Below are positions 16,775 through 20,279 of a stretch of 64,000 bases of DNA, one piece after another. Location of the stretch: positions 1,102,001-1,166,000 of the forward strand of contig NZ_CP106841.1 in NCBI RefSeq assembly GCF_027557445.1, in the 5' to 3' direction. Below the pieces are notes generated by a model, which was not told the DNA's origin, ran no database searches, and was given only the letters and a program-made list of their open reading frames with translations. How positions within the stretch are numbered: position 1 is the first letter of the stretch; each line of letters begins with the position of its first letter. Source of the stretch: Paenalcaligenes faecalis (GTDB taxonomy: Bacteria > Pseudomonadota > Gammaproteobacteria > Burkholderiales > Burkholderiaceae_B). The position numbers were made by a program, and so were the translations under genes.

Positions 16775-17107
16775 TTAGTGATGTTTAGTTTGACCGGCAC
16801 TAATACCGAATTGCTTTAAGACCTCGTCTTTGGTGGCGATGTCAAAACAGAGAAATACGATGGTGTCGTCAGCATTTAAGTTTTGGCTGACATCATCAAT
16901 CATTGCACTCGCATCTTGTGGTTGGGCTACTGCCATGACATGGATGTCGCCATCTGCTTCAAAACGCTCTTGAGGCACAATATCGGCCACACGATCAATG
17001 TTTGGTTCGCTGACAACCACATAGGCTTGGACAGGGCAATCATCTAAATACACATGAAGCACTGCACCATCGTCAAGGGTTGCGAGTAGTTGGTTGGTAG
17101 GGCTCAT
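16775..17107 (-). CDS. conserved-looking protein of unknown function (110 aa)
   Basis: I do not recognise this 110-aa protein. It is acidic, with no signal peptide or membrane segment. It looks like a small alpha/beta domain: LATLDDGAVLHVYLDD, then a QAYVVVSEP strand, then DDTIVFLCFDIATKDEVLKQFG near the C-terminus, ending in Lys-His-His. It starts with ATG preceded by a GGAGG-like site, sits 9 bp before gmk and 30 bp after xthA, and is very probably co-transcribed with them. Position suggests a link to nucleotide metabolism or DNA repair, but that is inference only. Codon use looks like its neighbours. Confidence 0.75.
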   Translation of the reverse strand: MSPTNQLLATLDDGAVLHVYLDDCPVQAYVVVSEPNIDRVADIVPQERFEADGDIHVMAVAQPQDASAMIDDVSQNLNADDTIVFLCFDIATKDEVLKQFGISAGQTKHH

Positions 17108-17136: not shown

Positions 17137-17922
17137 CTACAGATCAAACTGCACAATAACAGGAGTATGGTCGGAAGGTTGCTCATTAGAGCGCGGTGTT
17201 TTATCCACCACGCAGTTGACGCAGTAAGGAACTAAGGCGTCGGAAATGAGAGCATGGTCAATGCGTAAGCCGGCATCACGTCTAAACGCACCTCGACGGT
17301 AATCCCACCAAGAGAAACCGGGAGACTCAGTGTCAAAGAGACGGAAAGCATCGTGTAGCCCTAAGTCGATCAGTTTTTGCCATGCGGCTCGCTCTGCGGG
17401 TGAAACGTGGACTTTACCTTCCCATTTTTTTGGGTCATGTACATCTAAATCGGTGGGTGCGACGTTGTAGTCACCCAAAATCATGAGGTTTGGATAACGA
17501 CTTAGCTCATCTTGAAGCCACTCATGGAGGGCGGCAAACCAATTCATCTTATAGACATACTTATCGCTTTCTAGGTCTTGGCCATTAGGGCAGTAGGCGC
17601 TGATGACCCGCAGGGGGCCTTTAGGGCTGTCGTAAGTTGCTGCCACAATGCGTTGTTGATGGTCTTCAAACCCAGGGATGTTGCGTTGCACGTCTGTGCC
17701 AGTTGTTTTGCTAATTAAGGCGACACCATTATAAGTAGGTTGACCCGCCCATTGGGCTTGATAGCCTATTTCCTCTAATGCCTCTAGGGGGAATTTATCC
17801 TGGGGGAGTTTGAGTTCTTGTAAGCACAAAACATCAACGGGGTTATTTTCTAGCCAGTCAATTACTTGTGGAAGCCGCACACGTAATGAGTTGACATTCC
17901 AAGTAGCAAATTTCACGATCAT
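17137..17922 (-). CDS. xthA: exodeoxyribonuclease III (XthA/ExoA family)
   Basis: A 261-aa AP endonuclease and 3'-5' exonuclease that acts in base excision repair. The catalytic features of the exonuclease-endonuclease-phosphatase fold are present: Asn9 in TWNVNSLR, Glu36 in LCLQELKLP, the GDYNVAP centre, and the C-terminal SDHTPVI with the catalytic His. Length is typical. It is the first gene of the minus-strand run leading to gmk-rpoZ-spoT, and its promoter must lie in the AT-rich divergent region before 18150. Confidence 0.94.
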   Translation of the reverse strand: MIVKFATWNVNSLRVRLPQVIDWLENNPVDVLCLQELKLPQDKFPLEALEEIGYQAQWAGQPTYNGVALISKTTGTDVQRNIPGFEDHQQRIVAATYDSPKGPLRVISAYCPNGQDLESDKYVYKMNWFAALHEWLQDELSRYPNLMILGDYNVAPTDLDVHDPKKWEGKVHVSPAERAAWQKLIDLGLHDAFRLFDTESPGFSWWDYRRGAFRRDAGLRIDHALISDALVPYCVNCVVDKTPRSNEQPSDHTPVIVQFDL

Positions 17923-18064
17923 AGCCCTAATTAAGCAGTAAAGAATGGATTTTCGAGCAAATAATTTTAGCTAGATCATAACCGATTACACAAAAAAATT
18001 AGCTGAAAACTAATTCAATCGTAAGAGCATACATTTAAAAATCTAGCTAAGTATTTGTATTTAT

Positions 18065-18093
18065 TTGATTTTTTGTTTTGTTTTTGGTATAAT
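18065..18093 (+). promoter_or_regulatory. strong sigma-70-type promoter of the 49-aa gene
   Basis: TTGATT (18065-18070) and a perfect TATAAT (18088-18093) are separated by exactly 17 bp. A TGG precedes the -10, matching the extended -10 TGn motif. The spacer and upstream DNA are very T-rich. This is the best promoter match in the window, and transcription should start near 18100. Confidence 0.8.
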
Positions 18094-18149
18094 GCTTTTT
18101 GTGTGGGGCGTAAGGGATGCCCCTCTGTTTTTTGGCAGGAGGTGTACAG

Positions 18150-18299
18150 ATGGCTACTAAACGACCAACTCGTCGTCGTCAGCAACTTGAGATCGAACCC
18201 TTAAATTGGGTCGCACCCGATGCGCGTAAAGACCAAAGTGACAAACGCGTCGAGCAAGACGAACAAGACCAAGACAATAAGAAAATAGCCGAAAGCTAA
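18150..18299 (+). CDS. small charged protein of unknown function (49 aa)
   Basis: I do not recognise this 49-aa protein. The first 12 residues are strongly basic (KRPTRRRQQ), the middle contains LNWVAP, and the last 25 residues are almost all Asp, Glu, Gln, Lys and Arg. No membrane segment or cysteine is present. The ATG at 18150 follows a perfect AGGAGG (18137-18142) at seven bases' spacing; an ATG at 18117 would add 11 residues across that site and is rejected. It has its own consensus promoter and a strong terminator, so it looks like a highly expressed single-gene unit. Possible roles are a nucleic-acid- or ribosome-associated microprotein, which is inference. Confidence 0.72.
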   Translation: MATKRPTRRRQQLEIEPLNWVAPDARKDQSDKRVEQDEQDQDNKKIAES

Positions 18300-18320
18300 T
18301 TTTTATTGTTATAGAATACT

Positions 18321-18357
18321 AAACGCGCAGGCATCATTGTCTGCGCGTTTTGTTTTT
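18321..18357 (+). terminator. strong terminator after the 49-aa gene
   Basis: Perfect 10-bp stem AAACGCGCAG / CTGCGCGTTT, 10-base loop, followed by TGTTTTT. It closes the transcript about 20 bases after the stop codon and just before the ribosome site of the next gene. Confidence 0.9.
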
Positions 18358-18378: not shown

Positions 18379-19131
18379 TTGGACTATGACCCGTCCATCG
18401 ATCTAGATGATGTGACTCTCTCTGAGAGCGATGGTATTCGTTATTTGCATTTTGGTACTGAGTGGATTCAAGGCGCGATGCGCATCGTGCGTCCCCATGA
18501 TTTGGTTCTAACATATACACAGCAAATGATGGCTTGGCTGTTGTTTCATGAGCCTCAAGAGCAAGAAGATATTGGTATTTTAGGGCTAGGGGCTGGGTCG
18601 TTGTTACGCTTTTGCATGAAGCACACAACCAGTACCCTACATACCGCAGAGATCAATCCCAGAGTGACGGCCATGTGCCGGTCCTTTTTTAGATTGCCTG
18701 AAAATGCGCGGTCACAGATTTATCATCAAGACGCTGAAAAATGGGTCGCCAGTACGGAACACATTGCACGCTATAAGGTGTTGATGGTGGATCTGTATGA
18801 TGCAGCCGCTCAAGGGCCCGTTTGCTCCTCTGAGGCTTTCTATAAAAACTGTTATCAGTGTTTAGATGAAGAAGGCTTAATGACTGTGAATTTATTTGGT
18901 GCGCATCATAGTTATGATGAAAATATTGATCATATAGCACGGGCTTTTAATGGCAATGTTCTGGTGCTGCCCGAGATAGATGAGGGCAATACGGTTGTCA
19001 TTGCTTTTAAAGGGGATTTTTTAGCTCGTACCACGACGGCGATGTTGATGGATAGGGCGCAAGTAGTGCAGGATCAGTACAAACTACCAGCGCGACGTTG
19101 GGCTAAGTCTATCTTGGCAGACCAGCCTTAA
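18379..19131 (+). CDS. spermidine synthase-like methyltransferase-fold protein
   Basis: A 250-aa protein of the polyamine aminopropyltransferase superfamily. The Rossmann motif GLGAGSLLRFC is at 69-79, with Glu91 as the likely ribose-binding acid and VDLYDAAAQGP after it. The N-terminus is shorter than classical SpeE. The start is TTG, chosen because a perfect AGGAGG (18366-18371) lies seven bases upstream and the frame has no nearby ATG. No speD or other polyamine gene is adjacent. Such SpeE-like proteins often lack proven aminopropyltransferase activity, so the substrate is uncertain. Confidence 0.78.
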   Translation: MDYDPSIDLDDVTLSESDGIRYLHFGTEWIQGAMRIVRPHDLVLTYTQQMMAWLLFHEPQEQEDIGILGLGAGSLLRFCMKHTTSTLHTAEINPRVTAMCRSFFRLPENARSQIYHQDAEKWVASTEHIARYKVLMVDLYDAAAQGPVCSSEAFYKNCYQCLDEEGLMTVNLFGAHHSYDENIDHIARAFNGNVLVLPEIDEGNTVVIAFKGDFLARTTTAMLMDRAQVVQDQYKLPARRWAKSILADQP

Positions 19132-19310: not shown

Positions 19311-20279
19311 ATGAAACGCAATAACACACTAAAAACGTTAGTGGGTTTGGCCCTCAGCGCTAGTTTGCTTGCCTCTACTGCTGCCTTTGCGCAGACGGTG
19401 TCTGTGTCTTCTATCGTAGAACACCCTGCCTTAGACTCGGTACGTGATGGTGTGAAAAAGGCCTTGAATGACGCAGGTTACACCGAGGAAAAAGGCTTAA
19501 AGTGGCAATTTCAGACAGCCCAAGGCAACACGGCAATTACAGCTCAAATTGCTCGTAAATATGTAGGCGATAAGTCAGACGTTATTGTGGCTATCTCTAC
19601 TCCCTCTGCTCAGGCAGTTGTAGCAGCGACTAAATCTATTCCTGTTGTTTTTTCTGCGGTGACAGATCCGGTTGCAGCACAATTAGTGTCGTCGTGGGAT
19701 GCATCAGGAACTAATGTGAGTGGTGTTTCTGATATGTTGGTTTTAGAAAAACAATTAGAGCTCATTAAAAAAGTCGTCCCTAATGCGAAAAACGTTGGTA
19801 TTGTTTATAACTCTGGCGAAGCTAACTCGGTAGTCGTCGTAGAGCGTCTACGTGAATTACTTACTGCCAATAATATGGCTTTGGTCGAGGCCACAGCAGC
19901 CCGTACTGTAGACGTGGGTGCAGCGGCCCGTAGCTTAGTGGGTAAAGTTGACGTCATTTATACCAATACGGATAACAACGTGGTTTCTGCTTTTGAAGCC
20001 TTAGTTAAGGTCGGTAATGATGCAAAAATCCCAATTATTGCATCAGATACGGATAGCGTAGCGCGTGGTGCCATTGCCGCATTAGGCGTTAACTATTACG
20101 ACTTAGGCGTACAGACCGGTAATATGGTGGTACGTATTCTAAAAGGTGAAAAAGTCGGCAATATGGCCTCTGAAACCAGCGATAAACTAGAGTTGTTTGT
20201 TAATCCTGGTGCAGCAGAAAAACAAGGTGTGACCTTAGATGACGCGTTCATCAAGTCAGCCACAAAAATCATTGAATAA
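19311..20279 (+). CDS. ABC transporter substrate-binding protein (TrpX/COG2984 type)
   Basis: A 322-aa periplasmic protein. A clear signal peptide (KRNNTLKT then a hydrophobic core) ends in AFA before QTVSV, giving probable cleavage after about residue 27. The body has the two-lobed binding-protein pattern with VIVAISTPSAQAV, FSAVTDPVAAQLV and the late YTNTDNNVVSA motif, as in the ABC_sub_bind (COG2984) family, which includes TrpX tryptophan-binding proteins. The ATG at 19311 follows TAGGAG. It is the first of three genes with permease and ATPase. The ligand is unproven; an aromatic amino acid is a reasonable guess. Confidence 0.88.
   Translation: MKRNNTLKTLVGLALSASLLASTAAFAQTVSVSSIVEHPALDSVRDGVKKALNDAGYTEEKGLKWQFQTAQGNTAITAQIARKYVGDKSDVIVAISTPSAQAVVAATKSIPVVFSAVTDPVAAQLVSSWDASGTNVSGVSDMLVLEKQLELIKKVVPNAKNVGIVYNSGEANSVVVVERLRELLTANNMALVEATAARTVDVGAAARSLVGKVDVIYTNTDNNVVSAFEALVKVGNDAKIPIIASDTDSVARGAIAALGVNYYDLGVQTGNMVVRILKGEKVGNMASETSDKLELFVNPGAAEKQGVTLDDAFIKSATKIIE

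Follow-up and report, generated by a model that had tools for sequence, protein, structure and literature searches.

We identified a 49-codon open reading frame (ORF) that is a real protein-coding gene under purifying selection; by sequence comparison, its product is a new orphan protein family and its mRNA leader carries a putative new 5′ untranslated region (5′UTR) element. The gene is flanked by a divergent exodeoxyribonuclease III gene (xth; 17137 to 17922) and a spermidine synthase-like gene (speE-like; 18379 to 19131) in a 64,000-nucleotide window (G000, contig C1, positions 1102001 to 1166000) of a 2.73-Mb genome whose named close relatives are Paenalcaligenes. The promoter, 5′ hairpin, Shine-Dalgarno sequence, ORF, and terminator are all packed into 300 bp:

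18065 to 18093, plus strand: σ70 promoter, TTGATT-17-TATAAT, with TG before the −10 element (extended −10); pattern scan and recurrence in relatives
18105 to 18123, plus strand: 5′UTR hairpin, GGGGCGT-AAGGG-ATGCCCC, near the predicted transcript start; pairing and covariation in the leader alignment
18137 to 18142, plus strand: Shine-Dalgarno sequence AGGAGG, 7 nt before the ATG at 18150; sequence, and kept in the leader alignment
18150 to 18299, plus strand: 49-codon ORF, MATKRPTRRRQQLEIEPLNWVAPDARKDQSDKRVEQDEQDQDNKKIAES, stop included; conservation, selection, and codon usage
18198 to 18218, plus strand: codons of the core motif PLNWVAP (residues 17 to 23); P, L, W, and the final P are invariant in 60 distinct genes
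18321 to 18357, plus strand: intrinsic terminator, with a stem at 18321 to 18350 and a T-rich tail; scan, and similar hairpins in relatives

An initial annotation of this DNA had named an extended −10 promoter with 17-bp spacing, a perfect AGGAGG, and a 49-codon ORF, all of which we recovered, the promoter by scan and the ORF running from the ATG at 18150 to the stop at 18299. The terminator that it proposed is also present, but its stem has 13 pairs (with a loop of 4 and a T-rich tail) rather than 10; its main omission was the 5′ hairpin.

Selection on the protein and distribution of the gene

The 60 aligned genes give the core consensus F-x-I-x-P-L-N-W-x-A-P and all retain P-L-N/D-W-x-A/S-P, while the tail diverges. 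Within the genus, dN/dS was 0.04 to 0.30, and it was <1 in 97% of pairs with 0.05 < dS < 2, although such pairs are not independent of one another and dS approaches saturation when genera are compared. The conserved columns draw on every one of the four Pro, Ala, and Val codons and on six Leu codons. Because synonymous codons vary at invariant residues and dN/dS is low, we conclude that selection acts on the peptide. A longer version of the ORF could begin at an in-frame start at 18117, but conservation starts only at 18150; the Alcaligenes genes mostly start with GTG.

Searching with the single sequence gave strong matches within the genus and weaker ones throughout the family. A 25-sequence profile matched 102 of 269 family genomes at E ≤ 0.1; it was built without Achromobacter-like and other remote members, and recovered those mostly at E values of 1e-8 to 1e-2. 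With a 32-sequence profile, the gene was found in 97 of 269 family genomes and 18 of 43 genera (E ≤ 0.01), at one place per genome; this profile includes some remote members, so that for remote groups the 97-genome figure arises partly by construction, and independent support for them comes from the 25-sequence profile matches and the shared architecture. The ORF is thus conserved in relatives, a point on which the initial annotation had let its proposal stand or fall. Carriers include Paenalcaligenes, Alcaligenes, the Pusillimonas group, and Achromobacter-like genomes (group g2, a putative label based on reading of sequences). No relative outside the family was found in a profile search of 321 genomes drawn from the class (E ≤ 0.02). 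Order-level matches outside the family with another profile (A2) were weak (E ≥ 0.005), and the ones that we inspected were unrelated frames in other genes.

A tree of xth places most genomes that carry the gene next to xth in one clade (5 label changes versus 19 in shuffles; three rows labeled as lacking the gene do carry it, further from xth), and no divergent relatives were seen beside xth in 27 loci from genera without the gene. The tree suggests few origins and largely vertical descent, with some losses (for example, in G178 and G183, which belong to the same genus). The gene is missing from about two-thirds of family genomes and is therefore not essential to the lineage.

A small, autonomous, strongly promoted gene might be a component of a toxin-antitoxin system, but here we consider this extremely improbable: the gene is single copy, chromosomal, and inherited largely vertically next to xth, and was not found on plasmids; its product is highly charged, with no membrane or hydrophobic segment, unlike type I toxins; and we saw no conserved partner gene or antisense RNA, nor, by scan, any opposite-strand promoter-like site over the gene.

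Promoter, terminator, and neighboring genes

A pattern scan taken by itself does not lift the promoter above chance (3 sites found versus 3.4 expected in shuffles), so its case rests on comparison: it is significant because the ORF is conserved and because a −35/−10 pair recurs in many distant genera at a similar distance, about −83 to −88 nt relative to the start codon. The Alcaligenes loci have an identical TTGATT-17-TATAAT at equal distance; other genera have TTGACA-16/17-TATTNT. Upstream of or overlapping the −35 element, the sequence TAAGTnnTTG...ATTGG (18043 to 18070) is conserved in many xth-linked relatives and may be an activator site or part of the divergent xth promoter.

At least 38 of 60 relatives have a terminator-like hairpin ≤110 nt past the stop. 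Genus-wide (relatives L003 to L007), the terminator stem (ACGCGCAGG...CCTGCGCGTTTTGTTTT) hardly differs between members, unlike the sequence preceding it. The best reading of the locus is one free-standing transcription unit with a predicted mRNA of ∼255 nt; an abundant small mRNA is plausible, as it would fit this anatomy. Taken as a whole, the 260-nt RNA has a low folding energy (z = −3.3), and both hairpins contribute to this.

Leader peptides with attenuators have a small ORF and then a terminator ahead of a biosynthesis-related gene, an arrangement that this locus shares. The downstream gene has the Pfam Spermine_synth domain, a TTG start, and a PRK04457 score of 198 bits, under the cutoff of 304. 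Its start lies only ∼28 nt behind the terminator stem, and a scan found no promoter-like site in the short gap; read-through is therefore probable here and may feed the speE-like gene in this genome, as would be expected if our ORF were its leader ORF and attenuator. We nevertheless judge that relationship very unlikely, since the speE-like gene is ∼1.3 kb further downstream in many relatives, and since Alcaligenes and Achromobacter-like genomes have the ORF elsewhere, with hairpin and/or terminator, the downstream gene differing between genera. The ORF is also longer than leader peptides, its peptide contains no run of regulatory codons, and selection acts at the protein level. In Alcaligenes, the gene adjoins what we take, reading by eye, to be a LysR-type regulator gene and, in some Achromobacter-like genomes, what is presumably a GGDEF gene, also read by eye. 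Since the unit is constant and its neighbors (xth, speE-like, LysR, GGDEF) change, it appears to be an independent gene and not an attenuator of the speE-like gene.

The surroundings offer other observations. Many relatives retain, next to xth or close by, a 110-aa protein (16775 to 17107) with no Pfam or NCBIfam match, and in many a TrpX-like ABC substrate-binding protein (19311 to 20276; 267.7 bits, under the cutoff of 390) follows the speE-like gene. Each of 28 family genomes searched has at least two exodeoxyribonuclease III paralogues (for example, G144 and G158).

A covarying hairpin in the 5′ leader

The hairpin is the best-conserved part of the locus outside the ORF and appears not to have been described before; Rfam gave no matches in the window at gathering score. 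In 41 leaders, 91% of cells are paired, with changes on both sides at all 8 pairs; doubly changed cells numbered 58, versus 15 in shuffles, and the signal was lost when partners were slid. RNAalifold recovers the same helix unaided, and the loop G is ≥90% conserved. Transcription is predicted to start ∼7 nt past TATAAT, which would place the hairpin at about +5 of a transcript whose end is itself a prediction. Several Achromobacter-like members keep the protein and are missing the 8-bp hairpin.

A covariance model found the hairpin once per genome, only before this ORF, with other matches at noise level; it is therefore part of the gene and not a regulon signal. Matches at E values of 0.004 to 0.1 in G215, G271, and G282 lie in the leaders of other genes, which we take, by eye from their translations, to be dnaJ, an SDR reductase gene, and a RuBisCO small-subunit-like gene, and we regard these as chance hairpins. 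The 5′ hairpin was rejected as an intrinsic terminator: TCTGTTTTTT trails it here, but Alcaligenes lacks the T-run, as does much of the Pusillimonas group. A CsrA/RsmA-regulated leader, with its GG-loop hairpin, was rejected because CsrA (PF02599) was absent from 21 of 21 genomes searched, with positive controls.

Stem-loops of the ompA type at the 5′ end stabilize mRNA. Ours is similarly located near the predicted mRNA 5′ end, upstream of the Shine-Dalgarno sequence but not covering it; it differs in that the loop G and the small-gene context are conserved, and a stabilizing effect is putative. Conservation of the loop G goes beyond the needs of pure stability, which, together with the occurrence of the hairpin only before this ORF, a basic head in every family member (charge +1 to +5), and the lack of CsrA, the usual GG-loop reader, in the 21 genomes searched, such that another reader is needed, would fit an RNA-binding microprotein that regulates itself: its basic head would bind the G-rich loop of its own mRNA and repress or stabilize it, as some ribosomal proteins do. 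Because the hairpin leaves the Shine-Dalgarno sequence uncovered, the PLNW core is more conserved than the basic head, and Achromobacter-like members have the protein without the hairpin, we think this unlikely. A related, hitherto undescribed combination, in which a disordered PLNWxAP protein and its RNA form one unit, the basic head reading the G-loop hairpin so as to make a self-controlled regulator specific to one Alcaligenaceae clade, seems to us decidedly unlikely.

The initial annotation had also raised a dual-function RNA, and the RNA might even base-pair with targets as a noncoding small RNA (sRNA), the ORF being incidental or secondary. Its size and layout are like those of small RNAs with a terminator, and the family offers a precedent in Bordetella S17, a small RNA with a 32-aa ORF (PMC11722255). 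Like our locus, S17 belongs to this family and gives a short σ70 transcript that carries a small ORF and ends at a terminator of its own; however, locus and ORF differ, and S17 conserves a C/U-rich 27-nt RNA stretch (PMC11722255), whereas conservation here falls on the protein core and on the 5′ hairpin. Low dN/dS and synonymous variation do indicate that a functional small protein is encoded, as expected of a dual-function sRNA, but selection tracks amino acids, the core is free to vary at synonymous sites, and Rfam has no match. The ORF and the stretch between stop and terminator hold no conserved RNA segment: within the genus, the 20 nt that follow the stop show an identity of 0.53, versus 0.52 for flanking DNA and 0.80 for the ORF. 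The conserved RNA parts are only the paired 5′ hairpin, which alone covaries, and the terminator. The dual-function proposal thus finds no support, and an sRNA role has, in our view, a very low probability.

Protein architecture and proposed role

All members share one architecture, consisting of a basic head, F-x-I-x-PLNW-x-AP, and a charged tail, which extends to the family the basic head and charged tail that the initial annotation had pointed out; median charge is +3 ahead of the core and −2 behind it, and in several Achromobacter-like members the tail is not acidic. Its statement that the protein matches no family was borne out: the window ORF has no match in Pfam or NCBIfam and no relative in the PDB, searches of Pfam and PHROGs with family members gave nothing significant (best PHROG match, E value of 0.11), and a literature search for the motif found none. 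Taken with conservation and purifying selection, this lack of a family match supports its view of a self-contained gene for an unrecognized small protein. DUF1127 proteins are also small, often <50 aa, and some act via protein-protein contacts (PMC12501420); our protein has no Pfam match to DUF1127 and differs in motif, tail, and charge layout.

AlphaFold2 (15-row alignment; mean pLDDT of 69, pTM of 0.19) predicted that head and core are extended, confidence being highest around residues 11 to 20 (block mean of 84), and that a low-confidence C-terminal helix follows (residues 26 to 47); this monomer model, built on a shallow alignment, is of low confidence and is not proof of disorder. Beta-clamp and C-terminal degron motifs, judged by eye, did not fit. 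A short linear docking motif would most simply account for a hydrophobic core that stays invariant while the charged peptide around it varies.

Our preferred reading, which we hold to be somewhat more probable than its negation, is that the gene encodes a soluble, mostly disordered microprotein, made from its own small mRNA, that acts as an adaptor or modulator by docking on a partner via PLNWxAP. A strong housekeeping promoter would produce the free-standing mRNA, ending at its own terminator; the conserved hairpin, almost at the RNA start, probably protects the 5′ end and/or serves as a recognition site. The mRNA would be translated into a soluble microprotein of 45 to 51 aa, in which an invariant PLNWxAP core stands between a basic head and a charged tail that is mostly acidic. 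This protein probably lacks a fold of its own and would work as a peptide adaptor or modulator. Its hydrophobic core segment, FxIxPLNWxAP, may dock on one conserved cellular partner, with the charged ends tuning binding. We infer its abundance, its disorder in the cell, and its mode of docking.

The protein family and the structured 5′UTR are now defined, each with a searchable alignment or model, for a gene that is kept by about one-third of sampled family genomes and that annotation libraries (Pfam, NCBIfam, and Rfam) miss. The gene occurs in tractable relatives such as Alcaligenes, and conserved orphan microproteins built around a single invariant short motif are well suited to finding unrecognized docking sites on core machinery.
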